Origin: Fimbriimonadaceae bacterium
Lineage (GTDB): Bacteria > Armatimonadota > Fimbriimonadia > Fimbriimonadales > Fimbriimonadaceae
Assembly (NCBI GenBank): GCA_023957775.1
Contig: JAMLGR010000012.1
Coordinates: 1-64,000 of the forward strand
Direction of reading: 5' to 3'
DNA length: 64,000 nt
In this document: positions 15,624 to 58,142 of the stretch, in pieces
Layout of the letters: each line of letters opens with the position of its first letter
How positions within the stretch are numbered: the stretch's first letter is position 1
Notes under the pieces: model-generated
Told to the model about the DNA's origin: nothing
What the model saw: only the letters and a program-made list of their open reading frames with translations
Databases searched by the model: none
Program-made: the position numbers and the translations under genes

Positions 15624-15690
15624 GGGACGGGAATCGGGAGACGGGAATCGGGAGACGGGAATCGGGAGACGGGAATCGGGAATCGGGGGG
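15624..15690. repeat. 7-bp tandem repeat array (GGGAATC/GGGAGAC)
   Basis: Alternating heptamers GGGAATC and GGGAGAC, eight units or so, fill the space between the pseudopilin start region and the sdhC stop at 15692. An identical type of array lies at 21573-21680. Confidence 0.9.
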
Positions 15691-19410: not shown

Positions 19411-19492
19411 CAGTGACTTTCGCCGAACTGGCAGGTCGTTTTTGCAGGGCCCCGACCCTCAAAAGGTCGAGGCCCACTTGGGAGACCCGCGC

Positions 19493-20632
19493 TCAGCGCG
19501 CGTCGATCGGGGTGAACGGCACGTTGGTCGGCCCTTCGTAGATGCACTTGGGGCGGATGAGGCGGTTGTTGTCGATCTGCTCGATCATGTGCGCGCTCCA
19601 TCCGGTCACGCGCGCGATCACGAAGATCGGCGTGTACAGCTCGATCGGAATGCCGAGCAGGTAGTACGCGTAGGCGGCGGGGAAGTCCACGTTCGGGTGG
19701 ATGTTCTTCTCCTCGAGCATCACCCGCTCGAGGATGTCGGCGATGTCGCCCCACTTCGTCACGCCCTTGCGGCGGCCGATCTCCTTGGCCATCTGCGTGA
19801 GGATCCCGGCCCGGCTGTCCGCCTTCTTGTACTCGCGGTGGCCGAAGCCCATGATCTTCTTCTTGGTGGCCAGCGCATCCCGAATCCACGCTTCCGCGTT
19901 CTCCGGCGTGCCGATCTCCTTGAGCATCTTCATCGCCTCCTCGTTGGCGCCGCCGTGGAGCGGGCCTTTGAGGGTGCCGATGCCCGTGACGATGCCGCTG
20001 TAGAGGTCGCTGAGCGTGGCGACCGTCACGCGGGCGGCAAACGTCGACGCGTTGAACCCGTGCTCCGCATAAAGCGTGAGCGATGCATCCATCGCCATCT
20101 CGGTGAACTCGTCCGGCTTCTCGCCGCCGTGCAGGATGTAGAGGAAGTTCGCGGCCGTGTTCAGCGACGGATCGGGCTTGACGATGTCCTGCCCGTGCTG
20201 GATCCGGTAGCCGTTCGCCACGATCGTCGGCGCCTTCGCCATGATCCGGACGGCCTTGCGGACGTTCGCGTCGTGGTCGTTCTTGTCGTAGTCGGGATCG
20301 TACGGCGCCAGCACCGCGTACGCGGCCCGGGTGACGTCCATCGGGTGGGCGTTCTTCGGCATCGCGCGCAACGCGTCGTACACCTGCGGGGGCACCTCGC
20401 GCTCTTCGCCCAACGTCTTGCGGAACGCGGCCAACTCGTCCCGATTGGGCAGCTTGCCGTAGAACAGCAGGTAGGCCGTCTCCTCGAAGGAACCCTTCTC
20501 CGCCAGGTCGTGCACGTCGATGCCTCGGTAAACGAGACTGCTGCGGTCGGAATCGATCTGGCTAATCTTGGAAATGCCGCCGATCACGCCTTCGAGACCG
20601 GGGCTGTAGTTGGGGTAAGTGGTTGCTGCCAT
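19493..20632 (-). CDS. Citrate synthase / 2-methylcitrate synthase
   Basis: The protein has 379 aa, the short 'type I dimer' length shared by Gram-positive citrate synthases and methylcitrate synthases (PrpC). The catalytic triad is visible: His226 (PLHGGAN), His265 (MGFGHREY) and Asp316 (NVDFPAA). It condenses acetyl-CoA, or propionyl-CoA, with oxaloacetate. Its gene starts 14 bases after the methylisocitrate-lyase-like gene, and that pairing favours a methylcitrate-cycle role, though it could also be the main citrate synthase. AAGGA upstream of the ATG serves as ribosome binding site. Confidence 0.92.
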   Translation of the reverse strand: MAATTYPNYSPGLEGVIGGISKISQIDSDRSSLVYRGIDVHDLAEKGSFEETAYLLFYGKLPNRDELAAFRKTLGEEREVPPQVYDALRAMPKNAHPMDVTRAAYAVLAPYDPDYDKNDHDANVRKAVRIMAKAPTIVANGYRIQHGQDIVKPDPSLNTAANFLYILHGGEKPDEFTEMAMDASLTLYAEHGFNASTFAARVTVATLSDLYSGIVTGIGTLKGPLHGGANEEAMKMLKEIGTPENAEAWIRDALATKKKIMGFGHREYKKADSRAGILTQMAKEIGRRKGVTKWGDIADILERVMLEEKNIHPNVDFPAAYAYYLLGIPIELYTPIFVIARVTGWSAHMIEQIDNNRLIRPKCIYEGPTNVPFTPIDAR

Positions 20633-20646
20633 TTCCTAGTCCTTCT

Positions 20647-21558
20647 TCAAAGCTCTTTGTTCAGTTGCGTGCCGTCTACCTCGTCGCTCCACGCCCGATC
20701 TTGCGCTTCGTAGGCCGGGTATTCGATGAGATCGTAAAGCTCGGCCCGTGTCCGCATCGAGTCGAGGAATCCAGCTTGCGTGCCGGTCTCCAAGAGCTCC
20801 TTGTAGGCGTCCGTGACGGCCTTCAGCATGACCCGGAAAGCGGTCATCGGATAGATGACGAGATTGTACCCAAGGGACCCGAAATCCGAGAGGGTGAGAA
20901 GGGGGGTCTTCCCGAACTCCGTCATGTTCGCAAGCAGCGGCGCGGACACCCCCTTTCGGAACGCCTCGAACTCGGCCTCCGACTGCAGCCCCTCGGGAAA
21001 CACCGCGTCCGCTCCGTGGTCGACGTAGAGCTTCGCACGGTCGATCGCCGCGTCCAACCCCTCGACGCCTCGGGCGTCGGTCCGGGCCACGATGAGGAAC
21101 GCCGGATCGCGCCTCGACGCCACCGCCGCGCGCACCTTCTTGGCCATCTCGTGCGGGGCGATCACCGCCTTCCCATCGAGGTGCCCGCAGCGTTTCGGGC
21201 TGACCTGGTCCTCTAGATGGATGCCCGCCAGACCCGCGCGCTCCATCTCGCGCACCGTCCGCGCCACGTTGAGCGTCTCGCCGTAGCCCGTGTCGGCGTC
21301 CGCGATCACGGGCACCGGCGCCGCCTGGCACACGTACGCCGCCTGCTGCGCCATCTCCGTGAGCGTGAGGAGCGCGATGTCCGGCACGGCGAGCAGTGCG
21401 TTGGTCACCCCCGCGCCGCTCAGATACAGCCCCTCCGCGCCCGCCGAGTGCGCGGCCTTGGCCGTGATCGCATTGAACACGCCGGGAAGGCAAACGACGC
21501 CGTCGGCCATGCGCTCGCGCAACGCGCGTCCAGGCGATTCGGGACCTCGATGCAGCAT
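20647..21558 (-). CDS. prpB: Methylisocitrate lyase (PrpB-like)
   Basis: The protein has 303 aa. It belongs to the isocitrate lyase/PEP mutase superfamily; PrpB splits 2-methylisocitrate into pyruvate and succinate. The key motif K-R-C-G-H (QVSPKRCGHLDG) carries the catalytic cysteine, DADTGYGE binds metal, and the length matches PrpB rather than the longer isocitrate lyase. The ATG at 21558 has TATCCT six bases upstream. It leads a two-gene operon with the citrate/methylcitrate synthase. No prpD or acnD is in the window. Other superfamily members (oxaloacetate hydrolase, carboxyPEP mutase) are less likely because of KRCGH. Confidence 0.88.
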   Translation of the reverse strand: MLHRGPESPGRALRERMADGVVCLPGVFNAITAKAAHSAGAEGLYLSGAGVTNALLAVPDIALLTLTEMAQQAAYVCQAAPVPVIADADTGYGETLNVARTVREMERAGLAGIHLEDQVSPKRCGHLDGKAVIAPHEMAKKVRAAVASRRDPAFLIVARTDARGVEGLDAAIDRAKLYVDHGADAVFPEGLQSEAEFEAFRKGVSAPLLANMTEFGKTPLLTLSDFGSLGYNLVIYPMTAFRVMLKAVTDAYKELLETGTQAGFLDSMRTRAELYDLIEYPAYEAQDRAWSDEVDGTQLNKEL

Positions 21559-21572
21559 GGGGGGAGGATACC

Positions 21573-21680
21573 GGGAGACGGGAGACGGGAATCGGGAGAC
21601 GGGAATCGGGAGACGGGAGTCGGGAATCGGGAATCGGGAGACGGGAATCGGGAGACGGGAGTCGGGAATCGGGGGGGGAT
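21573..21680. repeat. 7-bp tandem repeat array (GGGAGAC/GGGAATC/GGGAGTC)
   Basis: About 15 heptamers of the form GGGARWC/GGGAGTC run without interruption between the prpB promoter and the S9 peptidase gene. This is the longest heptamer array in the window. Confidence 0.92.
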
Positions 21681-21729
21681 CGGGCGTGCGCAGGACCGCT
21701 GCCCGCCCGCCCCGAACCTAAGAAATGCC

Positions 21730-23988
21730 ATGATTCGCCGTCTTTCCTTCGCTCCACTCCTGCTCCTCAGTACCCTCGCCCTTGCGGGCTCGCCGGTTCC
21801 CAGCGGCCCCACCCCGGCCGACCTCAAGGCGGCCTACGAGCGGGCCGACCAGATCGCCCAGGCGCGGGGAGCGGCGCGGATGCTGCAGCTCGAGCCGCAC
21901 TGGTTCGCGGGCGATCGCTTCCTCTGGTACCGCAAAGCGCTGGCCCAAGGAGCCAGCGAGTTCGTGCTGGTCGATATCGAGAAGCGCATGAAGAACCCCG
22001 CGTTCGACCACCAGAAGCTGGCCGCGGCGCTGGCCCAAGCCTCGGGCAAGAAGGTCGACGGCGCGAAACTCCCGTTCCAGGAGATCACGCTGGCCGACAA
22101 CCTCAAAACCGTCCAGTTCGACTGGGACAACAAACGATGGGAGTGCGATCTCGCCGCCTATGCGTGCAAATCGATCGGCGACGCATCCACGCCTCCCCGG
22201 GGTCCCGGGCGAGGCGGACGCCCAGCCCCTCGCCAAGGGGCGCGCCAGGGCCCGAACCGCTCGCCAGACCAGAAGCTCGTTGCCCGCCTCGAAGACGGCA
22301 AGATCGTCGTGGCCTCCACGGCCGACGATTCCCGTGTCTTCGAGAGCGCGCTCGACTCCTTCGCCGCCGTTCGATGGGCGCCGTCGGGCGACCGGCTCGT
22401 CGCCTTCCGCGTGCTTCCCGGCGACCGGAAGCAGGTGTTCCTCATCGAGTCCTCTCCGCGCGACGGCGGGCGCGCCAAGTTGGTGCAGCGCGATTACGAT
22501 CTGCCGGGCGACAAGCTCGATACCTTCGAAACCTACGTGATCGAGCTCGGCGCCAAGAAGGAAACCAAGGTGGACCTGGCTCCCATCTACACCGGCGGAC
22601 GGCCGTACCTCGGCCCTCCAAACCTCGACTGGACGCGCGACGGCAAGGCGTTCCGCATGACGATCGTCGAACGCGGCTACCAGCGCGCCTTCGTCGTGGA
22701 TGTGAACCTCGCCACCCTAGCCGTCAAGACCCTGGTGGACGAGCGGCCCGAGACCTTCGTCGACTCGACCAGCCTCATGCGCGAAGACTTCAGGGACTCG
22801 GATGAGATGCTCTGGCGGTCCGAGCGCGACGGGTGGGGCCGGCTCTATCTCGTGGACACGGCCAAAGGCGCGGTCAACAACGCCGTCACCCCACCCAACT
22901 GGATCGTGCGATCGATCGTCCACGTGGACGAAAAGGCGCGCACCGTGATCTTCACGGCCAACAACACGGACCCCGCGGAGGATCCGTACTACATCCACGC
23001 GTTCCGTGTGAACCTCGACGGCACAGGCTTGGTGGCGCTCACCGACGGCGACGGCACGCACACCCCACGCTTCGCGCCGGGTTGGGGCAGCCTCGTGGAC
23101 ACTTACTCGCGCGTCGACTCTCCACCGGTGCACGTGTTGCGCACCGTGGGCAGCCCCGCCCCGTTCGTGCTGGAGACGGCGGACCTCGAGGATTGGAAGG
23201 CGTTCCACGTGCCCGACGTTGAGCGCTTTTCGGCAAAGGGGCGCGACGGGGAGAGCGAGATCTACGGCGTGGTCTACCGCCCGAGCGACTTCGACCCCTC
23301 GAAGCGCTACCCCATCATCGAGAACCTCTACGCAGGGCCGCACGACTCGTTCGTTCCCAAGGCGTTCAGCGCCCTCAACGGGATGCAGCAGATGGCCGAA
23401 CTCGGGTTCATCGTCGTGCAGATCGACGGCATGGGCACCCGCAACCGGGGCAAGAAGTTCCACGACGTGTGCTGGAAGAACATCGCCGACGCGGGTTTCC
23501 CCGACCGCATCCTCTGGATGAAGGCCCTCGCCGCGAAGTACCCGTACGTGGACATCTCGCGCGTCGGGGTGTACGGCACCTCCGCCGGAGGGCAAAGCTC
23601 GACGGGCGCGCTCCTGTTCCACCCCGAGTTCTACAAGGTGGCCGTCTCCTCGTGCGGTTGCCACGACAACCGCATGGACAAGGTGTGGTGGAACGAGCAG
23701 TGGATGGGCGTCCTCGGCCCGCACTACGAGGCTCAATCGAACATCACCAACGCCGGCAAGCTCGAGGGCAACCTCCTTCTGATGCTCGGCGAGATGGACA
23801 CGAACGTTCCGCCCGAGTCCACCCTGCGCCTCGTGGACGCCCTCATCAAGGCCAAGAAGGAGTTCGACTTCGTGATGCTGCCCGGCTTCGACCACACCAG
23901 CGGGGGGCCCTACGGCGAGCGGAAGCGGAGGGACTTCTTCGTGAAGCACCTGCTGGGGGTGGAACCGCCAAGCTGGAACGGAGGATAG
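21730..23988 (+). CDS. S9 family peptidase, dipeptidyl-peptidase IV-like
   Basis: The protein has 752 aa with an N-terminal signal peptide (LSFAPLLLLSTLALAGSPVP). A beta-propeller domain like DPP IV (about 90-480) precedes a prolyl-oligopeptidase catalytic domain (about 510-745). The nucleophile Ser is in Y-G-T-S-A-G-G; the Asp is in the LMLGEMDTNVPPE region and the His in PGFDHTSGGP. A disordered Pro/Gly/Arg-rich insert (about 155-180) interrupts the first propeller blade. It should act outside the cytoplasm, releasing dipeptides from Xaa-Pro/Ala N-termini. The open frame extends upstream over the heptamer array, but the signal peptide fixes ATG 21730. Confidence 0.9.
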   Translation: MIRRLSFAPLLLLSTLALAGSPVPSGPTPADLKAAYERADQIAQARGAARMLQLEPHWFAGDRFLWYRKALAQGASEFVLVDIEKRMKNPAFDHQKLAAALAQASGKKVDGAKLPFQEITLADNLKTVQFDWDNKRWECDLAAYACKSIGDASTPPRGPGRGGRPAPRQGARQGPNRSPDQKLVARLEDGKIVVASTADDSRVFESALDSFAAVRWAPSGDRLVAFRVLPGDRKQVFLIESSPRDGGRAKLVQRDYDLPGDKLDTFETYVIELGAKKETKVDLAPIYTGGRPYLGPPNLDWTRDGKAFRMTIVERGYQRAFVVDVNLATLAVKTLVDERPETFVDSTSLMREDFRDSDEMLWRSERDGWGRLYLVDTAKGAVNNAVTPPNWIVRSIVHVDEKARTVIFTANNTDPAEDPYYIHAFRVNLDGTGLVALTDGDGTHTPRFAPGWGSLVDTYSRVDSPPVHVLRTVGSPAPFVLETADLEDWKAFHVPDVERFSAKGRDGESEIYGVVYRPSDFDPSKRYPIIENLYAGPHDSFVPKAFSALNGMQQMAELGFIVVQIDGMGTRNRGKKFHDVCWKNIADAGFPDRILWMKALAAKYPYVDISRVGVYGTSAGGQSSTGALLFHPEFYKVAVSSCGCHDNRMDKVWWNEQWMGVLGPHYEAQSNITNAGKLEGNLLLMLGEMDTNVPPESTLRLVDALIKAKKEFDFVMLPGFDHTSGGPYGERKRRDFFVKHLLGVEPPSWNGG

Positions 23989-23998
23989 GGGCGCTTAT

Positions 23999-24070
23999 CG
24001 TTTGTCGTTTTTCGTTTTTCGTTTGTCGGGGGGAGTCCGGCGACAAACGATCAACGATCAACCACAAACA
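23999..24070. repeat. Heptamer array (CGTTTGT / ACAAACG) running into a gene's stop codon
   Basis: Units CGTTTGT, CGTTTTT, CGTTTTT, CGTTTGT are followed by a G-rich spacer and then ACAAACG, ATCAACG, ATCAACC, ACAAACA in the inverse sense, so the block can also form a hairpin. Its right half overlaps the stop and the last six codons of the methyltransferase gene at 24051. Confidence 0.8.
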
Positions 24071-25100
24071 AGGTTTGCGAGACGCCCCACTCCTGGCCCT
24101 TGTCCAGCCCGAACATCTCCGCGCAGGCCATGAAGAAGATGCGCCACCGTTGGAGCCAGCGGGCCGCCTCTTCCGCGCCGTAGTGGTCGGCGAGGATTGC
24201 CAAGGCCTCGTCGCGCCGGGCGTCGAGCCGTTCCAACCATGCGTTGGACGTCTTCTCGTAGTGCGTGCCGTCCCACTCCCAGCGGTCCACCAGCGCCAAC
24301 GCGTCTTGGAACGAAGGCAGGAGGTCGGTGCTGGGCATGATCCCGCCGGTGAAGAAGTGCCGGCCCATCCAGTTGCCCGACCCCTCGGTGTCGAACGTGT
24401 AGGGGAACCGGGCGTGCCGGAAGACGTGGAAGAAGGCGAGCCCCTCCGGCGCGAGCCAACCGGCCATGCGCTCGAAGAGCACCGGGTGGTTGCGCACGTG
24501 TTCGAGCATCTCGATCGAGACGATCCTATCGAACGTCGCTCCCGGCTCGAAAGTGTTCACGTCCGCGGTGCGGATCTCCAGGTTCTGCAATCCCCGGCGC
24601 CGGGCCTCGTCGAGGATGAAACCGCGCTGGGGCGCCGAGTTGGACACGCCTACGATGGACGCCCCCGGGAACCGCTCCGCCAAGTAGAGGCTCAGGGAAC
24701 CCCACCCGCACCCGAGGTCGAGGACGCGCTGGCCGTCCTCGATGCGCGCCCGCTCCGCGTACGTCGCCAGAGCGCGCTCCTCCGCTTCGGCAAGGGTCGC
24801 CACGCCGGGAGCCCATTCGCAGCACGAGTATTTGCGCCTCGGGCCCAACACCAGCTCGAAGAAGCGGGGCGGAAGCTCGTAGTGCTGGGCGTTGGCCTCC
24901 TCGGTGGCCTCGGCGATGGGGGCGTCCTCCAGAGCGCGGACGAACGCCGACAGCGCGGCCTCCTCCGAGCCGTCGCACGCGCGTTCGACGGCGCGGAGGC
25001 GGTTGCGCGAAGCCGAGCGGATCGCGGCGCGGATCACGCTGTCCGGAACGAGCGCACGCTCGGCGAGCGCGAGGCCTGCGGAAACGACGAGTTCAGCCAT
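24051..25100 (-). CDS. CFA-synthase-like SAM methyltransferase (second copy in operon)
   Basis: The protein has 349 aa. It is a class I SAM methyltransferase of the cyclopropane-fatty-acyl-phospholipid synthase superfamily: HYELPPRFFELVLGPRRKYSCCEW (cut here only as a landmark at about 90-113), SAM motif LDLGCGWGSLSLYLAE, and IVSIEMLEHV. It lacks the usual N-terminal lipid-binding domain of full CFA synthase and has its own alpha-helical start. ATG 25100 has GGAGG seven bases upstream. It is the last gene of a six-gene operon and overlaps the DUF1295 gene by eight bases. It probably methylates an unsaturated fatty acyl chain; the product is unknown. The last codons lie in a heptamer repeat. 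Confidence 0.85.
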   Translation of the reverse strand: MAELVVSAGLALAERALVPDSVIRAAIRSASRNRLRAVERACDGSEEAALSAFVRALEDAPIAEATEEANAQHYELPPRFFELVLGPRRKYSCCEWAPGVATLAEAEERALATYAERARIEDGQRVLDLGCGWGSLSLYLAERFPGASIVGVSNSAPQRGFILDEARRRGLQNLEIRTADVNTFEPGATFDRIVSIEMLEHVRNHPVLFERMAGWLAPEGLAFFHVFRHARFPYTFDTEGSGNWMGRHFFTGGIMPSTDLLPSFQDALALVDRWEWDGTHYEKTSNAWLERLDARRDEALAILADHYGAEEAARWLQRWRIFFMACAEMFGLDKGQEWGVSQTLFVVDR

Positions 25101-25884
25101 GGGTTGCCTCCTTGGGCGGGAGCGGGATGAAGGGGGACGTGGTGCGCTGGTATTCGCGGTAGGCATCGCCCCGAGAGAGAAGGGAGCGGGCTTCCGTGAG
25201 CGGGATCCCCGTCACCTTGGTGAGGAAGAGGAGCATCACGAGCATGCCCGCGACGGCGAGCCACACCAGCGGTCCGCCCATCGCCAGCAGCACGTAGCCG
25301 CCCCAGTGCACCCACTCGAAGAAGTAGTTGGGGTGGCGCGACCACGCCCACATGCCATGGCTGCACACCTTGCCCTTGTTGTCCGGATCGGATCGGAACG
25401 CCTGCAATTGACGGTCGGCGATGCTCTCGCCGGTCACACCCAGAAGCCAGACCCCGATCCCGAGAACGTCCAGAAGCGAAGGCGATGGAGATGCGTTCGA
25501 AGCCGCGGCGAGCATGGGCAGGGCGAACATCACCGCCCAAAACGCCTGGATCTGGAAGAAGCCGAACATGAGCGGCTGGGTCTTGGGCCCCCACTTCTCG
25601 CGCAGCATGCGGTAGCGTCCGTCTTCTTCCTCGCCGGAAACGCGCACGAACAGCATCCCGCCCAAACGGAAGGCCCAGACGCCCGCGAGCACCGCCGTGA
25701 TCAAGCGGCGGGTCGGATCGCCGTCCGCGACCGCGGCGAACCAGAGAGCGCACAAGCCGGTTCCGAAGCTCCACGCGACGTCCACGATCCCGGCGTTGTG
25801 CCGGCGGTACTGGACCCACCAAAGGCCGCCCATCATCGCGGCCATCGCGCACCAAGCGATGCCGATGGCTTGCCACACGCTCAT
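25093..25884 (-). CDS. DUF1295 membrane protein (steroid reductase/ICMT-like)
   Basis: The protein has 263 aa and six or seven membrane spans. DUF1295 proteins are related to 3-oxo-5-alpha-steroid 4-dehydrogenases and isoprenylcysteine methyltransferases. The C-terminal half has the typical GMWAWSRHPNYFFEWVHWGG block (residues near 190-210) and ends with EYQRTTSPFIPLPP. It is often found beside CFA-type methyltransferase and DUF1365 genes, which fits a lipid reductase role; that function is inferred. Its ATG overlaps the stop of the selenoprotein-like gene (ATGA). The longer 506-residue frame upstream is a shadow of that gene and of the next CFA gene. Confidence 0.87.
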   Translation of the reverse strand: MSVWQAIGIAWCAMAAMMGGLWWVQYRRHNAGIVDVAWSFGTGLCALWFAAVADGDPTRRLITAVLAGVWAFRLGGMLFVRVSGEEEDGRYRMLREKWGPKTQPLMFGFFQIQAFWAVMFALPMLAAASNASPSPSLLDVLGIGVWLLGVTGESIADRQLQAFRSDPDNKGKVCSHGMWAWSRHPNYFFEWVHWGGYVLLAMGGPLVWLAVAGMLVMLLFLTKVTGIPLTEARSLLSRGDAYREYQRTTSPFIPLPPKEATHG

Positions 25885-26384
25885 CGGGAGCCCTCCCATC
25901 GAGCCAGGGCCAGGTAGTCGGGAACCTCGGACGGGTCCTTGCTGCGGTGCGCCTTCACCAGTTCGCCGTCCACGACGAGAAACACCCCCGGCAGTTGGGA
26001 CGCGTCCCCCTCCGTCGGACCCTGGCGGAACCCTCTGCCGAACGCGCGCGCCGCGCCCAACCACATCTTGGGACCGAGCAGAGCGCCCAACGACCCTCGC
26101 TGCAGATCCAGAGCCTGGTACAGCTTCCGCTCGGGATCGGCGAAACGGGGCACGTCCCCAACGCCGAACTCCTCGAAGAACGGTGCGGCTTTCTCCTCGG
26201 TGCTCATATGGACGAACGCCACCTGCGTTCCCATCCGCTCGATCTCTCCGCGCAGCCGCGCCACGTCGGAGACCATCTCGCGGCAGAAGATTCACCCAAA
26301 GTGCCGAATCACCACCAACAGCAGGGGTTTCTCCCGCGAGAGCAACGCGATCGCGTCCCACTGGGGGAGTTCGAGAAGGGTCAT
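25881..26384 (-). CDS. Peroxiredoxin-like (AhpC/TSA-type) protein, probable selenoprotein read through TGA at 26292-26294
   Basis: Read as one frame with TGA as selenocysteine, this is 167 aa. It starts at ATG 26384 (ATGA overlap with the CFA gene; another in-frame ATG is at 26390). Residues 21-35 read LLLVVIRHFG-U-IFCR, so U31 falls where relatives carry the peroxidatic cysteine of R-H-F-G-C-x-F-C-R-E, giving a U-x-x-C34 redox motif. The family fold continues intact after it: VAFVHMSTEEKAAPFF, GVGDVPRFADPERKLYQAL, QLPGVFLVVDGELV and PDYLALA. A plain gene call would start at ATG 26276 (131 aa) and lose the active site. Role: thiol- or peroxide-dependent redox within a lipid-modifying operon. 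Alternative: a Cys-to-stop mutation, thus a pseudogene. Confidence 0.82.
26256..26294 (-). other. In-frame UGA and candidate bacterial SECIS hairpin
   Basis: UGA occupies 26294-26292 (minus strand). Sixteen bases further is the apical loop UGG (26275-26273), closed by GAGA (26279-26276) and UCUC (26272-26269). A lower helix CCGC (26283-26280) with GCGG (26259-26256) can close the structure around a one-sided bulge. Distance to the loop, the four-base upper stem and a G in the first two loop positions agree with what is known of bacterial SECIS elements. The fold was made by eye and not by energy calculation. Confidence 0.55.
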
Positions 26385-27631
26385 CGCCATACGGTCTCCT
26401 TCGAAGCCAGCTCTCCGCGCGGCACCGCGCCGGACCACCTGGGTTTGGCGAGCACCATCTGGACGTCGCCCACGTGCCGCTCGGCGAAACCCGCCTCGCA
26501 GTACCGCAGGTAGAACTCCCACAGTCGGAGGAGGCGCTCCGGGTAACCGAGCGCGCGCGCCTCTTCCCTGCGCGCAACGAACCGCTCCCGCCACAGGCGG
26601 AGGGTGGTGGCATAGTGCGGACCGATCTCCTCGAGGTCCACCAGCCGAAGGTCCGAGGCGCGCGTCATCGCCTGCTGCATCGCCGTCCTCGAAGGGCAGC
26701 AGCTGCCCGGGAAGATGACGTGGCGGATGAAGTCGACGGAGCGCACGTACTGGGCGTAACGCTGGTCCGGCATCGTGATCGCCTGCACGGCCATGGCGCC
26801 CTGGGGCCGCAGCAGCTCCGCACACTTGGCGAAGAAACGTGGGAGGTTCTCGTGGCCAACGGCCTCGATCATCTCGATCGACACGATCCGGTCGAACTTG
26901 CCCTGAAGGTCGCGGTAATCCTTGAGGAGCACCTCCACCCGGTCCTGAAGTCCGGCCTCCTGGATGCGGCTGCTGGCCAGCGCGTGCTGTTGGCGCGAGA
27001 TCGTCGTAGTCGTGACGCGGCACCCGAACTCCTTGGCGGCCATCAGCGCGAAGCTCCCCCACCCGCTTCCGATTTCGAGCACGTGGTGGCCCGGGTTGAG
27101 TTCGAGCTTGCGGCAAAGGCGGCGGAGCTTGGCTTCGGACGCTTGCTCGAGCGTGGCCTCGGGGTGCTCGAAGAACCCGCACGAGTACGTCATGCTCTCG
27201 TCGAGGAACAGCGAGAAGAACTCGTTCCCGAGATCGTAGTGCGCGTGGATGTTCGCGCGGCTGTTGGCCTTCGTGTTGCGCCGCCCGAGGTGGCGCAGCA
27301 GGTTGGGCAGCGACATCAGCCAGGCGAGGCGGCGCTCCAGGGGACTCTCATGGCCGATGCGCCGCACCAGGATCTGGAACAAGGCCGTGAGGTCGTCGCT
27401 GTCCCAGGTGCCGTCTCCGTACGCTTGCGACGCCCCGATCGAACCGCGAAACGCAAGCTGGCGGTACGTGGCCGGATCGTGGACCACGAGCTGGGCGCGC
27501 AGGGGGCGGCTGGGATCGACCGCACCGAGCCGAAGCTCTCGATGCGGGTCTTTCAGGAGGATTTCCCCTCCCTGCAGCCGATCGAGGGCGGCGATCACGG
27601 CTCGGCGACACAGAGCATCGAGTGGTTTCAT
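26381..27631 (-). CDS. Cyclopropane-fatty-acyl-phospholipid synthase family methyltransferase
   Basis: The protein has 416 aa, full length for the CFA synthase family. An N-terminal lipid-binding domain (about 1-130, SCP2-like, with SQAYGDGTWDSDDLTALF) precedes the methyltransferase domain: HYDLGNEFFSLFLDESMTYS, SAM motif VLEIGSGWGSFALMAAKEFG, IVSIEMIEAVGHE and the C-terminal HYATTLRLWRERF. Members transfer a methylene or methyl group from SAM to the double bond of membrane acyl chains. Linked to DUF1365 and a flavin oxidase, it may make a methyl-branched or furan-type product instead of a plain cyclopropane ring. ATGA overlaps join it to genes on both sides. Confidence 0.92.
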   Translation of the reverse strand: MKPLDALCRRAVIAALDRLQGGEILLKDPHRELRLGAVDPSRPLRAQLVVHDPATYRQLAFRGSIGASQAYGDGTWDSDDLTALFQILVRRIGHESPLERRLAWLMSLPNLLRHLGRRNTKANSRANIHAHYDLGNEFFSLFLDESMTYSCGFFEHPEATLEQASEAKLRRLCRKLELNPGHHVLEIGSGWGSFALMAAKEFGCRVTTTTISRQQHALASSRIQEAGLQDRVEVLLKDYRDLQGKFDRIVSIEMIEAVGHENLPRFFAKCAELLRPQGAMAVQAITMPDQRYAQYVRSVDFIRHVIFPGSCCPSRTAMQQAMTRASDLRLVDLEEIGPHYATTLRLWRERFVARREEARALGYPERLLRLWEFYLRYCEAGFAERHVGDVQMVLAKPRWSGAVPRGELASKETVWR

Positions 27632-28383
27632 GGTTGCATCTCGGGCAGATGGTTCTTGGAGGGATGGCGCTGGTAGGGAACGCCCTTGCGCCACAGCTTG
27701 AGCGCTTGGAAATAGATGCCCGCGATCACGCGGTGCGTCATCAGCGGGTGACGCCAGGACAGCCGCCGCCACTCGCTTGCGGTGAGCGGGCGGCGACGCA
27801 TGACGAGCGTGGCGTCCAGGACTTTGTCGTCGCGCTCGAAGCTCTCCATGTGCACGACCAGGTTCTCGCCGGGAGGCTCGAAGCGCCATGAGTAGCGCTG
27901 GTCCATCCCCATGAAGGGCGACACGTGGAACTCCTTGCTGAACCGGCCGAGACCCTCTTCGGAGCTGCGCTGCACGTAGCAGTGGGTCTCGCCCCACGGC
28001 GTGTTGTGCACCTCGCTCACGATGGCCTCCACGCGCGTGTCGGCCTCGTCGAAGCAGTAGAGGAAGGAGACGGGATTGAACCGGAAACCCGCGGTGCGCG
28101 GGTGGGTGAGCATCCGTACCGGACCCAGGTTCTCCAGCCCAAGCCGCTCGGCCGCGAGCGCGCGGGCCGCGTGGTCCAAGCGCACTCCGGGTTCGCCGAA
28201 GTGCTCCTCCCGGCGAATGCCGCGGGCGAGCTTCTTCAACAGAGGCTCCTTCTGGACCGAGCCGTCGAGGGGCCACAACTCCTCGAGGTCCACGTAAGCC
28301 ATGTGGAGGTCGTAGCGAAACGCGTGGGGACGGGGCGCGAAGCGCCGGTGGCGCACCCAGCCGTCGTAGAAGGCGCTCTTCAT
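27628..28383 (-). CDS. DUF1365 family protein
   Basis: The protein has 251 aa and begins MKSAFYDGWVRHRRFAPRPHAFRYDL, the family's conserved start (H-R-R-x-x-P-x-x-H-x-F). FRFNPVSFLYCFD and the EVHNTPWGETHCYV block follow, all typical of DUF1365. The function is not established; the family is almost always coded next to a flavin amine-oxidase-like gene and a CFA synthase, as here, and belongs to light- or singlet-oxygen-induced lipid-modification gene sets in proteobacteria. It overlaps both neighbours by ATGA, so it is cotranslated. Confidence 0.93.
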   Translation of the reverse strand: MKSAFYDGWVRHRRFAPRPHAFRYDLHMAYVDLEELWPLDGSVQKEPLLKKLARGIRREEHFGEPGVRLDHAARALAAERLGLENLGPVRMLTHPRTAGFRFNPVSFLYCFDEADTRVEAIVSEVHNTPWGETHCYVQRSSEEGLGRFSKEFHVSPFMGMDQRYSWRFEPPGENLVVHMESFERDDKVLDATLVMRRRPLTASEWRRLSWRHPLMTHRVIAGIYFQALKLWRKGVPYQRHPSKNHLPEMQP

Positions 28384-29615
28384 GCCTTGCCTCCGAACGC
28401 AGCGGCGACCTCGAGCGCGCTCCGGACCCCGTCCTCGTGGAAGCCGTAGCCCCAGTACGCCCCGCAATACGAGATGCGGTTGTGGCGGAGCATCGAGGCG
28501 CGGCGCTCTCGCGCGGCCATCCCTTCGACGGTGGTCACGGGGTGGTGGTACGTGAAGCGGCGCAGCACCTTTTCGGGTGCGATTCCCCGCTCGTTGAGCG
28601 AGACGCAAAACGTGCTCGTCGAGCGAAGCGACTGCAGCAGGTTCATATGGTAGGTTACGGCGGCGGGGGCATCGGGTTGGGTTCCCGCGTGGTAGTTCCA
28701 ACTCGCCCAAGCCGCTTTCGAGCGCGGCAGGACCGAGGTGTCGGTGTGCAGCACGACGTCGTTCGGCTGGTACGGGAAAGCGCTCAGCGCGGCGCACTCC
28801 GAGTCCGTAGGGTCTGTGAGCGCGTCCAGCGCCTGATCGGCGTGGCAGGCGAACACCAACTCGTCGAATCGCTCTGCGCCTCGAGTCGAGACGACCTCGA
28901 CGCCGTCCTGTGTGCGCCTCACGGCGTGCACGGGCGAGCTTGTCCGAAACTCGACGCCGAGCCCCTTCAGAAGTTTGTCCACGTAGCGTTGGGACCCTCC
29001 CCGAACGACCTCCCACTGGGGCCGGTCCTCGAACTGCAGCATGCCGTGGGCCTGGAGGAAGCCGGCGACGAACCGGATGGGAAAGGCGCCAAAAAGGGAT
29101 CCGGGACAGGACCAGAGCGCCGACCCAAGCGGCTGCAAGAACCGTTCGGCAAACTCGCGAGACCTTCCGCGGGATTGGACATAGGCGTCGACGGTCAGGC
29201 TGGCGGGCGCCTGGGCCAGCTCCTCGCCATCCCTGAAGAAACCGCGGATGTCCGCCAGCATCCTCCAGTGGCCGGGCTTGAGGACGCTGGCTGGCTGGGC
29301 GAAGAGCGTGCGGGGGCCCCGACCCGCATACTCGATGCCCGAGCGGTCGCACCGAACCCCGAACGACATGTCCGTCGGCTGGGTCTCGACGCCCAACTCG
29401 TCGAGCAGGGCGGAGAAGAGGGGGTAGTTGCGCCGGTTGAAGACGATGAAGCCCGTGTCCACCTGGAACTCCGACCGTCCATCGCTCACCGTGACAGTGG
29501 CGACATGTCCCCCGACCTTCGGGGCCGCTTCAAACAGGGTCACGCGGTGCTGGCGCGAAAGGGCCCGGGCTGCCACCAGCCCCGAGACGCCCCCACCCAC
29601 CACCGCGATGTGCAT
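28380..29615 (-). CDS. NAD(P)/FAD-dependent flavin oxidase, amine-oxidase/desaturase type
   Basis: The protein has 411 aa. It starts MHIAVVGGGVSGLVAARALS, the Rossmann FAD-binding motif (G-x-G-x-x-G at about 7-12), with E in LFEAAPKVGGH; the family is that of phytoene-desaturase/amine-oxidase flavoproteins found beside DUF1365 and CFA genes. In Rhodobacter a related flavoprotein takes part in making methylated furan fatty acids, so a desaturase or oxidase acting on a methylated acyl chain is plausible (inference). It is the first gene of the operon. The ATG at 29615 is only eight bases from a perfect TATAAT, so the message is practically leaderless. Confidence 0.9.
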   Translation of the reverse strand: MHIAVVGGGVSGLVAARALSRQHRVTLFEAAPKVGGHVATVTVSDGRSEFQVDTGFIVFNRRNYPLFSALLDELGVETQPTDMSFGVRCDRSGIEYAGRGPRTLFAQPASVLKPGHWRMLADIRGFFRDGEELAQAPASLTVDAYVQSRGRSREFAERFLQPLGSALWSCPGSLFGAFPIRFVAGFLQAHGMLQFEDRPQWEVVRGGSQRYVDKLLKGLGVEFRTSSPVHAVRRTQDGVEVVSTRGAERFDELVFACHADQALDALTDPTDSECAALSAFPYQPNDVVLHTDTSVLPRSKAAWASWNYHAGTQPDAPAAVTYHMNLLQSLRSTSTFCVSLNERGIAPEKVLRRFTYHHPVTTVEGMAARERRASMLRHNRISYCGAYWGYGFHEDGVRSALEVAAAFGGKA

Positions 29616-29652
29616 TACATATCATTATACACTGATATGTAATGCATTGCAA
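29611..29652 (-). promoter_or_regulatory. Consensus promoter inside a 14-bp perfect inverted repeat (putative operator)
   Basis: On the minus strand TTGCAA (29652-29647), a 17-bp spacer and TATAAT (29629-29624) make a textbook sigma-70 promoter, eight bases before the ATG at 29615. TGCATTACATATCA (29611-29624) and TGATATGTAATGCA (29633-29646) are perfect inverted copies with an 8-bp spacer TTATACAC. The palindrome covers the spacer, the -10 box and the start codon. This AT-rich patch is conspicuous in GC-rich surroundings. A dimeric repressor bound here would block both polymerase and the first codon. The regulator is not identifiable in the window. Confidence 0.85.
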
Positions 29653-29653
29653 A

Positions 29654-30409
29654 TCAGGACTTCAGGGGCTGGATCTCGATCCTCCGAAACTCCACAGGAT
29701 GGCTCTCCGACTGCAGGGAGATCGTGCCCCCGTCGATCAGCAGCTTGCCGTCCCTGATCAGGGTCTTCGCATCGGGGTCGTTCGGGTCGAACTGGATCTG
29801 CTCGTAGCGCAGCACCTCCTTCCCGTCAATGCGGTGGATCACGAGCCCCGCCCCATGGACTTCGACCTCGCACGAAACCCACTCTTCGCCGCGAAACGTG
29901 GGCGAGATCGAGTTCGTGCAGTGCTGGGTGATCAGCTTCCCGCCCATCACGATGTTCGTGCCGGGGGTGCACACGTTGCCGGTCGGCCGGTCGCCCGTGG
30001 CGTCGCCGCCCAGAAGCTGCACCTCGCACGAAACGGGGAAGTCCTGGTCGACGCGCATCGACTCGGGGGTCTGCCCATGGATCATGATCCCGCTATTCTT
30101 GAACGCCCACCCCGGGCCCCCCTCGATCTGCTTCCCGACGAAACGGTACTCGAGGCGCAACTTGTAGTTCGAGTACGGGGTCTTGTAGAAGAGGTGGCCG
30201 AACCTACCGTCGAACTTGCCGCCGTAGCCGTCGTACGACACCTTCAGCACGCCGTCCTCGACCCGGAAGGTGTTGGCGAAGTTCTCGCCCGCGGGGTAGT
30301 GGGTGATCTTGGGCGTCCATCCCGAGAGGTCGTGCCCGTTGAACAAAGGTTGCCACGCCTGAGGCGGGGAGGCGGGAGTGAGCAGAAGGGCCAGTGCGAG
30401 AAGGCTCAT
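29654..30409 (-). CDS. DUF1080 (3-keto-disaccharide hydrolase-like) secreted protein
   Basis: The protein has 251 aa with a signal peptide (MSLLALALLLTPASPPQA). The DUF1080 domain starts at QPLFNGHDLSGWTP and has the concanavalin-like blocks YKLRLEYRF, NSGIMIHGQ, VSCEVQLLGGD and FRRIEIQPL. Some DUF1080 members hydrolyse 3-keto-glycosides made by Gfo/Idh-type oxidoreductases; such an oxidoreductase is at 37207, though not adjacent. TACAAT lies six bases before the ATG (leaderless pattern). Its stop codon touches the -35 box of the flavin-oxidase operon on the same strand. Confidence 0.9.
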   Translation of the reverse strand: MSLLALALLLTPASPPQAWQPLFNGHDLSGWTPKITHYPAGENFANTFRVEDGVLKVSYDGYGGKFDGRFGHLFYKTPYSNYKLRLEYRFVGKQIEGGPGWAFKNSGIMIHGQTPESMRVDQDFPVSCEVQLLGGDATGDRPTGNVCTPGTNIVMGGKLITQHCTNSISPTFRGEEWVSCEVEVHGAGLVIHRIDGKEVLRYEQIQFDPNDPDAKTLIRDGKLLIDGGTISLQSESHPVEFRRIEIQPLKS

Positions 30410-30425
30410 ACCCGCATTGTAGTCT

Positions 30426-31424
30426 CTACCGCCAGAACAGGCTGAGCACCTCGAAGCACACGGCTCCGAAGGCGGCGGTGGCGGGAATCGTGATCACCCA
30501 AGCGATCACGACGCCCCTCGCGACCTGCCACCGAACGGCAGAGATCCTCTTGGACGCGCCCACACCGAAGATCGAAGCCGTGATCGCGTGGGTGGTCGAG
30601 ATCGGCATCCCGAAATGGCTTGCCGCGAGGATGACGGCCGCGCCGGAGGTCTCCGCCGCGAAGCCGTGCACCGGCTCGAGGCGGATGATCTTGTGGCCCA
30701 GCGTCTTGATGATCCGCCAGCCTCCCGCCGCGGTGCCGAATCCCATCGCCGTGGCGCACGCAAGTTTCACCCAGAGCGGCACCTCCGGCTGGGCGAGCAT
30801 CCCATTTGCGACCAACGCCAGGGTGATGATGCCCATGCTCTTCTGGGCGTCGTTCTGCCCGTGGGAGAACGCCATGAGCGCCGAGGACACCAGTTGCAGC
30901 TTTCGGAACGCCCCTCCCGCTTTGCCGGGGTGGACGTTGTGGAAGAAGCCCGCGATCAGGCGCATGACCAGGAATGCGACGAAGAACCCGACGATGGGGG
31001 ACCCGACCAGAGGGAGGATCACCTTGTCGACCACTCCGTTCCACGTCACGATGGTCACCCCCCCCTTGGCGATTGCCGCCCCGAGAAGGCCGCCGATCAG
31101 CGCGTGCGAGGAGCTGGAGGGGATGCCGTAGACCCACGTGATCAGATTCCATCCGATCGCTCCCACCACGGCGGCGAGCACTACCACCTCGGTGGCTTGG
31201 GTCGGGTCCACGATGCCGCCCGCGATGGTTTTGGCGACGTGGGTGGCCACCATGGCCCCCGCCACGTTCAGCACGGCGGCCATCATTACGGCCTGTAGCG
31301 GCGTTAGGACTCGGGTCGACACGACGGTCGCGATCGCGTTGGCGGTGTCGTGGAAGCCGTTGATGTAATCGAACGCGAGGGCGCCGACGATCACCAGGAC
31401 GAGCAGGATCGACAGCTCAGGCAT
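30426..31424 (-). CDS. pit: Inorganic phosphate transporter, PiT family
   Basis: The protein has 332 aa and about 10 membrane spans. Two PiT signature repeats are visible: GFHDTANAIATVVSTRVLTP near the N-terminus (about 23-42) and ALMAFSHGQNDAQKSMGII in the middle (about 190-208), the second being the inverted half. It imports phosphate, probably as a metal-phosphate complex with protons or sodium. Eight bases overlap the end of the DUF47 gene upstream, the usual partner. The short length (332 rather than about 500) is that of the compact bacterial type. Confidence 0.95.
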   Translation of the reverse strand: MPELSILLVLVIVGALAFDYINGFHDTANAIATVVSTRVLTPLQAVMMAAVLNVAGAMVATHVAKTIAGGIVDPTQATEVVVLAAVVGAIGWNLITWVYGIPSSSSHALIGGLLGAAIAKGGVTIVTWNGVVDKVILPLVGSPIVGFFVAFLVMRLIAGFFHNVHPGKAGGAFRKLQLVSSALMAFSHGQNDAQKSMGIITLALVANGMLAQPEVPLWVKLACATAMGFGTAAGGWRIIKTLGHKIIRLEPVHGFAAETSGAAVILAASHFGMPISTTHAITASIFGVGASKRISAVRWQVARGVVIAWVITIPATAAFGAVCFEVLSLFWR

Positions 31425-32046
31425 ATTTGTCGATGATCGTCCCGACGATCGCGGCGATGTGCTCGCACTTGTCGGAAGCCTGTTCGATCCGGTCGAACAT
31501 CTCCTTCCACTTGATCACTTCCAGCGCTTCGATGCCCGGCTGGTCGAAGAGATTCTTGAGCGCCTTGCGAAACGCCTTGTCGCTCTGGTTCTCGACGGTG
31601 TGGATCTCGCGCAGAGTCTCGCGCAGCGAGACCGACTTGGAGAAGCCGTTGCGAAGCTCGCGAATCGCGCTGTCTGTGAGCTGGGTGAGGTGCTGCAGCA
31701 GTTCGACGACCGGTAGTAGATCCTCTCGGGGGCCTGTGAGCGAGTAAAGCTCGGCTCGCGCGGCCGCCGCCTCGATGAGATCGGTGACGTCGTCGAGGGC
31801 TTGGCTCAGCTCGCGGAGATCCTCCTTGTCCAGCGGTGTGATGAACATCGTGGCGAGTCGGTTCTGCAACTCGTGCGTGAGCGTGTCGCCCTCGCCTTCC
31901 AGTTCGTCGAGGACCTTCGCGTGGTGGGGCAGGTTGCCGAAGTCATGGACCATGGCCAGAAAGGCGTCCGCCGACCGCATAGCGATCTTGGCCTGACCCT
32001 CGAGAAGGTCGTAGACCACCGTCTCCTTCCGCATCTTCATCTTCAT
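31417..32046 (-). CDS. DUF47/PhoU-like phosphate transport regulator
   Basis: The protein has 209 aa, all alpha-helical, with the PhoU-like DUF47 pattern (EGEGDTLTHELQNRLATMFITPLDKEDLRELSQ and two acidic E/D-rich metal motifs). ATG 32046 is preferred to an upstream in-frame ATG since MKMKMRKETVVYDLL is a usual start and GGAGAGG lies 12 bases before it. DUF47 proteins are coded with Pit transporters and are thought to control them. The pair is an operon overlapping by eight bases. Confidence 0.92.
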   Translation of the reverse strand: MKMKMRKETVVYDLLEGQAKIAMRSADAFLAMVHDFGNLPHHAKVLDELEGEGDTLTHELQNRLATMFITPLDKEDLRELSQALDDVTDLIEAAAARAELYSLTGPREDLLPVVELLQHLTQLTDSAIRELRNGFSKSVSLRETLREIHTVENQSDKAFRKALKNLFDQPGIEALEVIKWKEMFDRIEQASDKCEHIAAIVGTIIDKYA

Positions 32047-32161
32047 CAAATGCCGACCTCTCCGATGGAAGTTCTTTCTTCCAGTATGACCCTCAAGCCG
32101 ACAGGAATCCATGGGAGAAACGGAGGACGGGGCGCTAAGGCCATTTGATCGGCCGAAGACC

Positions 32162-33694
32162 CTATGAGCGAGTTGACGGAAACGCCGACGATCGGCCTCG
32201 TTGGGGCACTTTGGAAGCTGCGGACGACGAACGGGCGAGGGATGAGTTGGCGTACCGCGGATCGCCCGTCACCTCGCGAACGAGGGCGTCCGCCAGCCAC
32301 TGGGGGATCGCCGCCTCCGTATCGACGGACGGAAGCTCGACTTCCGCCAAGACGAGGTCGAGGCCCTCGAACTCGTCGATCTCCCACTTCAGCTCGCCCT
32401 CTTGGACGAAGTAACGGCGCTTCTTCAGGCGCCACCCTTCGGTGAGCGGCCACAACCGTTCGAATTCGCGTTCATCGAGGGGCTCCTCGAGTTCCTCGCG
32501 CACCAATCCCTCGCCGCGCTTCCATGTCCGCACCCACGACACGCGCCCGTCCTGGCACGTTCGCCTCAACCGTTCCCCTTCCCGCGCTTGGAAGTAACCC
32601 TGCTCGATCTCGACACACGGTGCCGACTGCGCGCGCTCGGGAACGGCCCGCAGGAGAAACTTCCTTTCGATCTCCAGGTGGATCGGGGTTGAGAGTCGCT
32701 TGGAAAGCTCCAGCGCAGGCGCCACCAGGCGGTCGGCAGCCGCCTTGAGCCCTGCCGTCGTCGCAGCCCATCGCTGGGCCCGAACCTCGTGAATCTGGCC
32801 GACGATGGCCACCCACCCGGGAATGGGGTCCTGGGATCGCAACAGCTTGAGCTCCTCCGAATCCTCGGTTCTTGCGGCGCGGGCGATCTGCCTTGCAAAG
32901 GCCCTCGCTTCCGACTCGATCACCGAGGCGCATGTTTCCACCCAAACGTCCGCGTCGTGCAGATCGCCCAGGAGATCCTGGAAGCTCTTGCAACGTTTCA
33001 CCAGATCCGCGGCCAAAGGCTCGGCGCCCGCCAAAGGCTCGAGCAGATAGCGCAGGCGTTTGCCGGCGATTCGGGCGCGGTGGGCGTGCGCCCGGTCTCC
33101 GACACCCTCGACCCGCTCGATCCGCCTTCGGAGCGTTGTTGCCGCGCGCTCGATACGTTCTCCTGCGAGCTGTCGAAGCGTGGGGCCTTCCATTGCATCG
33201 GGACGCAAATCGCGAAGCTCGGTCTCAAGCGCGCGAAGGACCGACTCCAGATCCTCTTCGATCCGGCGAGCGGCCTTGCCGTCGGAGCGCTGTCGCCGCG
33301 CTTCGAGACGGGACACAAGGCGGTCGAGGCCGGCCCGCTCGGCCCGCTTGAGCAAGGATGCTCGGCTTCTCAGCCACTCGAGCTGAACCTCCAGGTCCCG
33401 GCTCGGGTTGGTGGTGCGAGCGATCCGGCTCAGGCGTCGCATCGACCCTCGGCCAACGCCCTTGCCCAGCACCGTCCCGTAGCCCGCCAACACGCTGCGA
33501 AGTCGGCGCATCGCTACGCGAAGGTCATGAAGGGCCTCGACGTCCTCCGAATCTCCGAGGCGAGCACGAGCCCCTCGAATCTCTTCGAGCTTGTCCCGAA
33601 CCAGGGTAGCGACGGAACCGCGGGCAACCTCGCCGAGCGATTGGACCGTGAAGGAGCCATCTGCCACCCCGCCGTCTTCAGCTTGCGGGGACAT
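32162..33694 (-). CDS. CHAD-CYTH domain protein (polyphosphate/inorganic triphosphatase-like)
   Basis: The protein has 510 aa. The N-terminal half (about 20-310) is a CHAD domain with its conserved His/Arg helices: ALHDLRVAMRRLRSVL and AHRARIAGKRLRYLLEPL. The C-terminal part (about 340-490) is a CYTH triphosphate-tunnel domain beginning HLEIERKFLL with the E-x-E-x-K signature. The usual order is CYTH then CHAD; here it is reversed. CHAD binds polyphosphate, and CYTH enzymes split triphosphates, so the protein probably handles inorganic tri- or polyphosphate. The last 25 residues are Ser/Arg-rich. Neighbours Pit and DUF47 fit a phosphate theme; ppk and ppx are 12 kb away. Confidence 0.9.
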   Translation of the reverse strand: MSPQAEDGGVADGSFTVQSLGEVARGSVATLVRDKLEEIRGARARLGDSEDVEALHDLRVAMRRLRSVLAGYGTVLGKGVGRGSMRRLSRIARTTNPSRDLEVQLEWLRSRASLLKRAERAGLDRLVSRLEARRQRSDGKAARRIEEDLESVLRALETELRDLRPDAMEGPTLRQLAGERIERAATTLRRRIERVEGVGDRAHAHRARIAGKRLRYLLEPLAGAEPLAADLVKRCKSFQDLLGDLHDADVWVETCASVIESEARAFARQIARAARTEDSEELKLLRSQDPIPGWVAIVGQIHEVRAQRWAATTAGLKAAADRLVAPALELSKRLSTPIHLEIERKFLLRAVPERAQSAPCVEIEQGYFQAREGERLRRTCQDGRVSWVRTWKRGEGLVREELEEPLDEREFERLWPLTEGWRLKKRRYFVQEGELKWEIDEFEGLDLVLAEVELPSVDTEAAIPQWLADALVREVTGDPRYANSSLARSSSAASKVPQRGRSSAFPSTRS

Positions 33695-33749
33695 ACCTTC
33701 AAGGTACCCCGGGTTTTTCGCGGCCGGTCACCAGGTTTTTGGAGAGTGG

Positions 33750-35378: not shown

Positions 35379-35484
35379 CGTGATGCGAAGTTCGCGCCCG
35401 CGGGCTCAAACTCCTGTCGGCCCTTCGAGGCTTTGCCCGCAGATTTACAACTTCGCCCGGGTTTCGGACGATTCTTATCCTACA

Positions 35485-57929: not shown

Positions 57930-57954
57930 CCTCGCGCCCGTCATTCCGACCCCC

Positions 57955-58106
57955 CGGTCATCCCGAGCGGCCCCCGTCATTCCGAGCGGCCCCCGTCATC
58001 CCGAGCGAAGCGAGGGATCTGCTCGTGCAGGAGTCGTAGGATTGAAGCAACCGCCACGACCACGCTCGACTTGACAGCTGGATCCCTCGACTCCGCTCGG
58101 GATGAC
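57955..58106. repeat. Dispersed-type palindromic repeat with 5' partial copies
   Basis: GTCATCCCGAGCGAAGCGAG (from 57995, continuing to GGATC) and its inverted counterpart at 58080-58106 (GGATCCCTCGACTCCGCTCG, then GGATGAC) are near-perfect inverted copies. Upstream, partial copies GTCATYCCGAGCGG alternate with CCCCC from 57955. Similar GTCATCC..GAGCGAAGCGA words occur as repeats in many bacterial genomes. The rest of the 213-base gap holds nothing else visible. Confidence 0.7.
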
Positions 58107-58142
58107 CGGGGGGCAGGGGTGACCGAGGGGCACGGGAGGCCC

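Follow-up and report, generated by a model that had tools for sequence, protein, structure and literature searches.

Four enzyme activities for the synthesis of furan fatty acids (FuFA) have been demonstrated in alphaproteobacteria by Lemke et al. 2020 (PMC7380195). A cis-monounsaturated acyl chain is methylated by UfaM and turned into a methylated diene by UfaD (RSP1091). UfaO (RSP1090), which belongs to DUF1365, uses O2 to form the furan, and R. palustris FufM puts on a second ring methyl. A review places FuFA genes in the core sigmaE-ChrR regulon, a response to singlet oxygen (PMC6852236), and in Chlamydomonas singlet oxygen induces CFA1, the coclaurine-type CFA2, DUF1365, DUF1295 and GPX5, all in a SAK1-dependent manner (PMC4067076). 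Here we describe an operon that joins this set of gene families to a predicted selenocysteine (Sec) redox protein. It lies in a 64,000-nucleotide stretch of DNA, hereafter the window, from a Fimbriimonadaceae bacterium of the phylum Armatimonadota (assembly GCA_023957775.1, contig JAMLGR010000012.1, positions 1 to 64,000 of the forward strand). We consider it likely, from homology and gene order, that this single operon makes mono- and then dimethylated FuFA on phospholipid acyl chains, with a redox step built in.

A probable furan fatty acid gene set in overlapping genes

Re-reading of the open reading frames (ORFs) placed six genes on the minus strand, running from 29615 to 24051 with successive overlaps of 4, 4, 4, 4 and 8 nt. 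The first encodes a UfaD-like flavin (amine-oxidase fold) fatty-acyl desaturase (28380..29615; Pfam Amino_oxidase 4.9e-29, and NAD_binding_8). It is followed by genes for a UfaO-like DUF1365 protein, assigned to the O2-dependent furan-forming step (27628..28383; DUF1365 1.4e-71), a UfaM-like S-adenosylmethionine (SAM)-dependent acyl methyltransferase of the cyclopropane fatty acid (CFA) family (26381..27631; CMAS 4.8e-90), a SelL/PRXL2-type redox protein with a predicted Sec at codon 31 (25881..26384; AhpC-TSA_2 6.5e-13), a steroid-reductase-like DUF1295 membrane protein (25093..25884; DUF1295 9.8e-68, with Steroid_dh over its cut-off), and a FufM-like SAM-dependent methyltransferase predicted to carry out the second ring methylation (24051..25100; CMAS 3.9e-41). 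An earlier note on this DNA had claimed that the six genes overlap by 4-8 nt at all junctions; the re-read frames bear this out, and the Pfam families agree with it. Directly before the first gene lies a sigma-70-like promoter, TTGCAA-17-TATAAT (29624..29652, minus strand), which was the only promoter-like site within 23900-29800 (two registers of one site; shuffles gave a mean of 0.4). The overlaps, this single site and the gene order kept in relatives support the view, also taken earlier, that the six genes form one operon behind one predicted promoter.

The operon holds the families of all four published FuFA enzymes and DUF1295, with the UfaD-type flavoenzyme, DUF1365 and a UfaM-type methyltransferase encoded together. 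Homology gives the FuFA assignment strong backing, and the link to furan fatty acids drawn from the sequence at the outset is supported. We infer that the homologues keep their published activities, and the same holds for the substrates proposed below for the redox protein and DUF1295. By homology, the UfaM-like enzyme would put a methyl onto a cis-monounsaturated chain, the UfaD-like enzyme would make the methylated conjugated diene, the UfaO-like enzyme would close the furan ring with O2, and the FufM-like enzyme would add the second ring methyl, all steps acting on already existing phospholipid acyl chains. Two points count against this assignment. The Ufa and FufM names are used here at family level, the characterised proteins having been compared through their families and published description, and a search of the window genome found no PF00487 membrane delta-9 desaturase, unlike several other FuFA loci. 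The one PF03405 match in this genome (71.6 bits, partial profile) is the main candidate found and may provide the unsaturated substrate for the pathway; the single FabA/FabZ-type match may simply be FabZ.

In the window's phylum, FufM was found in 8/291 genomes and DUF1365 in 7/291, all within those 8. Seven operons were complete (the window, G009, G170, G171, G034, G100 and G104), and the eighth (G087) was ended by a contig end. The five core genes stand in the same order in the six complete operons besides the window, with the UfaD-like gene before DUF1365 in each. The FufM-like gene of G034 (L069 7608-8651) carries one in-frame TAG, which may mean that the second methylation is lost there.

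For a wider view we took the best 80 of 489 confirmed loci from a scan with FufM-like proteins, some of them ended by contig ends; their titles named Pseudomonadota, Planctomycetota, Acidobacteriota, Verrucomicrobia, Gemmatimonadota, Actinomycetota and Bacteroidetes. Near the FufM-type genes of these loci we found DUF1295 in 69, a UfaM-type gene in 65, DUF1365 in 64 and a UfaD-type gene in 62. The window order minus the redox gene was exact in 29/80, and its two halves were swapped in 16/80. Gene order, which had been suggested as a check, is thus kept both in the phylum and in these 29 loci. Because other phyla show five of the six gene types together and in this order, the grouping exceeds chance. 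The earlier note had regarded as new both the Sec redox protein in the unit and the union of DUF1295 with two methyltransferases. With DUF1295 and the UfaM-type gene at most of the best 80 loci, the latter is a common arrangement and its novelty was rejected; the former stands. Novelty is confined to the Sec redox protein and, less conspicuously, the near-constant DUF1295. Other genes recur beside the FuFA genes in the best 80 loci, namely DUF2878 (L139 7459-8010; cluster at 28), a lipocalin (L081 10952-11518; cluster at 27) and DUF6134 (L098 2604-3251; cluster at 12).

The predicted selenoprotein and its candidate role

The redox protein scored over the curated NCBIfam cut-off for NF040769, SelL-related redox protein (147.8 bits vs 120). 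An in-frame TGA (26294-26292) is its codon 31 and stands, in the motif U-I-F-C, at the first active-site residue. A search of 61 genomes gave 26 homologous matches in 24 of them, six with TGA at the first Cys of CxxC; homologues read TGC/TGT or TGA at codon 31. All 22 aligned homologues match NF040769 at E <= 0.001, and UxxC/CxxC is kept in 21 of the 22 rows. In the window genome, tRNA-Sec is matched at 76.5 bits (gathering score 47), and SelB over its full length at 365.5 bits (cut-off 242.25). All six TGA-bearing genomes have tRNA-Sec matches of at least 68 bits, and 35/61 genomes have a match above 66 bits; only such strong matches count, because the same search gives weak ones in every one of the 61 genomes and 14 controls. 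SelB was over the cut-off in all six TGA-bearing genomes (37 genomes searched). Inspection by eye of the 19 kb surrounding the tRNA-Sec gene showed neither selA nor selB, and no search was aimed at SelA or SelD; SelB lies elsewhere. With a TGA aligned to homologue Cys and both tRNA-Sec and SelB in the genome, Sec is predicted at codon 31, the TGA/Cys exchange being the main evidence. The Sec redox protein noted earlier inside the unit thus holds, and its gene occupies the same slot in relatives. A hairpin can form after the TGA, and in a comparison of 25 genes (6 TGA, 19 Cys) against a synonymous-codon null its mean z was -0.74 for TGA genes and -0.50 for Cys homologues, no clear excess. A selenocysteine insertion sequence was therefore not taken as proof of Sec.

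The redox gene sits between the UfaM-like and DUF1295 genes in four of the seven complete phylum operons (the window, G009, G170 and G171), with Cys in three of them. In a tree of the 22 homologues, the four operonic proteins and an orphan from G015 fell on one side of a branch with support 96/90, and the other 17 fell opposite, which sets the operonic proteins apart from 17/18 non-operonic relatives. The four operonic rows alone did not form one group (2 changes, with G015 among them), and the exact place of the operonic G009 row is unsure because it is long-branched. G009 holds two copies, one in each tree group. None of the 17 non-operonic homologues on the opposite side had another operon gene in the 18-19 kb fetched around it. 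From the tree grouping and these gene surroundings, the redox gene is a distinct paralogue that joined, or was kept in, the operon of one lineage. It had no match in 72,556 plasmid records. The orphan G015 copy is also a Sec copy (L038 9388-9828), flanked by multihaem-cytochrome-like and LuxR/PAS-like ORFs as judged by eye.

The predicted model of the redox protein (predicted local distance difference test, pLDDT, 94) had human prostamide/prostaglandin F (PGF) synthase as its nearest solved structure (9us9/9usa; Foldseek E 1.4e-8), with a structural alignment of Z 16.6 and root-mean-square deviation 3.0 over 150 residues. The same enzyme was the only solved protein found by profile search (3.6e-9), and its CxxC stands opposite U31/C34 in the alignment. 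Prostamide H2 is a cyclic endoperoxide. SelU3 proteins, commonly named prostamide/PGF synthases, are reported to reduce it (PMC3473315), and in the chemical synthesis of furans, including one furan fatty acid, a 1,3-diene is converted to an endoperoxide and then dehydrated (PMC10777415). Most likely, judging from sequence and predicted fold, the redox protein reduces an acyl endoperoxide or hydroperoxide. The UfaO step could give rise to such a peroxide, either on the way to the furan or as a by-product, and an endoperoxide that fails to dehydrate is a possible substrate; alternatively, it may come from finished furan hit by singlet oxygen. Among the literature matches listed for peroxiredoxins and selenoproteins, none names a furan fatty acid, a result that does not show the combination to be unreported.

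Several observations weigh against a redox step tied to furan chemistry. The redox gene is absent from G034, G100 and G104, three of the seven complete phylum operons, and a single-sequence search found it in 0/80 of the wider loci. A 22-sequence profile run with HMMER filters off over 87 loci (the 80 wider and the seven relatives) returned only the three known operonic copies, with the next match at E 0.51. Since it is lacking from these phylum operons and from 80/80 wider loci, the gene is not essential to the pathway. The orphan G015 protein, a member of the operonic tree group, is encoded in a stretch of 19 kb that shows no FuFA gene. Finally, ordinary peroxiredoxins come close behind PGF synthase (Z 15.0 vs 16.6). 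As these lie within 2 Z units of it, fold alone does not assign the function, and likeness to the PGF synthase fold does not prove endoperoxide activity.

A role as a general scavenger we regard as possible though unlikely. The protein would then remove H2O2 from UfaD re-oxidation, or ordinary lipid hydroperoxides, outside furan chemistry. Its peroxiredoxin-like fold, with Bcp, PrxQ, AhpE and Prx5 ranking below the top match, would suit that task, as would the amine-oxidase-type flavoenzyme encoded in the operon, and most homologues in relatives are located outside FuFA operons. However, the operonic proteins are grouped apart from those homologues, G009 has a separate copy elsewhere, and the best match in both sequence and fold is a lipid-endoperoxide enzyme.

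A role as a dedicated thioredoxin-like electron donor to UfaO for ring closure seems improbable. Lemke et al. state the UfaO reductant as unknown (PMC7380195), the conserved UxxC/CxxC motif would fit a donor, and the redox gene shares an operon with the UfaO-like gene. Yet diene + O2 -> furan + H2O balances without a reductant, so the redox protein need not be the donor; the gene's absence from three complete phylum operons and from all 80 wider loci argues the same way, and UfaO was active in extract with no added reductant (same source).

Peroxide reduction by the Sec protein could also form part of a larger cycle, in which the operon both makes and repairs FuFA and so provides a catalytic singlet-oxygen sink in the membrane; we give this extension little credence. 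It is general chemistry that a furan endoperoxide can be reduced to an ene-dione and that a 1,4-diketone can close to a ring. In such a cycle, singlet oxygen would convert the furan to an endoperoxide, the PGF-synthase-like Sec protein would reduce its O-O bond to give the ene-dione, and DUF1295, as an enone-type reductase, would yield the 1,4-diketone, from which loss of water would regenerate the furan. If true, singlet oxygen would be turned into water at the net cost of thiol and NADPH, and the DUF1295-FufM linkage would indicate that regenerating the furan belongs to the pathway in general.

The two methyltransferases and DUF1295

Cyclopropane synthases have a catalytic set of Cys, Glu, His, Ile and Tyr (E. 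coli C139, E239, H266, I268 and Y317). Gln283 of the UfaM-like protein aligns with the His of this set, which we take to be catalytic, and is Gln in 67/67 UfaM-like sequences; the Cys position is variable in the same set. The FufM-like sequences keep the His (84/84) and have Phe for Ile (84/84). For both counts, sequences below a set length or with stops were removed beforehand. Neither enzyme thus carries the full cyclopropane synthase set. With His replaced by Gln in one and kept in the other, the UfaM-like and FufM-like enzymes differ, by these residues, from one another as well as from cyclopropane synthases. That the operon yields cyclopropane or simple methyl-branched acyl chains and no furans is very improbable: both methyltransferases match CMAS/CFA models, and UfaM and CFA synthases share one superfamily, but the presumed catalytic His is lost throughout the UfaM-like set, and DUF1365 and the flavoenzyme, needed for furans, are present in 7/7 complete phylum operons.

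The best solved matches of the FufM-like protein were plant coclaurine/pavine N-methyltransferases (4e-68), and plant AT4G33110 is reported to be 37.87% identical to FufM (PMC10940516). The second methyltransferase is accordingly a coclaurine-type, LIME1-like member of the CFA superfamily. The earlier label 'CFA-type' was correct as to the CMAS family, but FufM-like is the better name, given these relatives.

For DUF1295 (pLDDT 95), the nearest solved structures were delta14-sterol reductase and steroid 5-alpha-reductases, the former (4quv) being the only structure match at E<=0.001. Asp157 and Asn186, invariant in 26 sequences, fall within the stretch aligned to 5-alpha-reductases and are presumably cofactor-side residues of the reductase fold. 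The protein thus has a steroid 5-alpha-reductase/sterol reductase fold in its predicted model, consistent with its Steroid_dh match and with the reductase likeness proposed earlier, and is probably an NADPH-dependent double-bond reductase. No published role of DUF1295 in the FuFA pathway was found in the literature searched, no listed DUF1295 title contained furan lipids, and the Chlamydomonas study alone turned up as naming DUF1365 with DUF1295. Linkage to FufM, the reductase-like fold and the Chlamydomonas co-induction make it likely that DUF1295 belongs to the FuFA system.

Regulatory context and comparison with known systems

A 36-bp perfect inverted repeat with 14-bp arms and an 8-bp spacer (29611..29646) spans the -10 box and the start codon of the first gene. 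The 3.5-Mb genome contains its inner 28-bp core a single time. The repeat may therefore have a regulator of its own, and it has the look of a dedicated operator. Nothing corresponding to the palindrome was present in the 160 bases before six related operons, and an operator shared across relatives was rejected on this ground. The window holds other repeats: at 21572-21673 and 15626-15687 a 7-bp GGGAAT/GGGAGT-like unit is repeated in tandem, with higher periods of 14 and 21 bp, and at 57937-58136 there are two tandem arrays, with units of 19/38 bp and 17 bp.

The neighbours of related operons support a setting of light and singlet oxygen, to judge from the genes encoded there. Pfam was searched with ten of the neighbouring proteins. 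Likeness to these, judged by eye, gave the names of the G170 regulator, of the desaturases of G009 and G100, and of the desaturase and photolyase clusters in the wider loci. MerR regulators with B12-binding domains stand beside the G170 and G171 operons, and such a cluster occurs at 10/80 of the best wider loci. A photolyase lies beside G104 (photolyase-like cluster at 4/80), sigma-70-type (extracytoplasmic function, ECF-type) factors form a cluster at 10/80, and a membrane desaturase lies beside G009, G100 and G104 (cluster at 31/80). The MerR genes are at L067 3573-4463 (G171) and L068 14655-15545 (G170); the L067 copy, with B12-binding domains, is CarH-like. B12-mediated light control of related FuFA operons is a testable idea. 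The photo-oxidative context suggested by the earlier note gains from these CarH-like MerR, photolyase and ECF-type neighbours; around the window operon itself (19442-35513), no such light or singlet-oxygen regulator was seen by eye in the ORF list.

FuFA occur in bacteria, plants and fish, and the operon bears on three questions about them: their fate after singlet oxygen, ring closure by UfaO and the role of DUF1295. It names two candidates physically tied to the pathway, the Sec peroxiredoxin-like protein and DUF1295, and the relatives with and without the redox gene offer a natural comparison.

Among described systems, the R. sphaeroides and R. palustris pathway (PMC7380195) has the four enzyme families in common with the window, including the FufM-like second methylase. 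Genes for ufaD, ufaO and ufaM are adjacent in the window as in R. palustris (RPA2571-2569). In R. palustris, however, fufM (RPA0924) is at a separate locus, and in R. sphaeroides ufaM (RSP2144) stands apart, whereas the window has all genes, its UfaM-like gene among them, in one overlapping operon with DUF1295 and the Sec redox protein. The FAD-DUF1365-CFA-DUF1295-FufM clusters of other phyla have the same five genes; none of the 80 carries the redox gene found in the window, and genes for DUF2878, a lipocalin or DUF6134 are often interspersed with theirs or adjacent to them. With the NF040769/PRXL2 (SelU) family the redox protein shares the score over cut-off, the UxxC/CxxC motif and a peroxiredoxin-like fold, and it differs as a dedicated group in a lipid-modification operon. 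Human prostamide/PGF synthase, its closest solved relative by profile and fold, is an animal enzyme with Cys and about 20% identity to the window protein. In the SAK1 response of Chlamydomonas to singlet oxygen (PMC4067076), CFA1, CFA2, DUF1365, DUF1295, the peroxidase GPX5 and a fasciclin are co-induced; there the genes are unlinked, in a eukaryote, and the peroxidase is another one.

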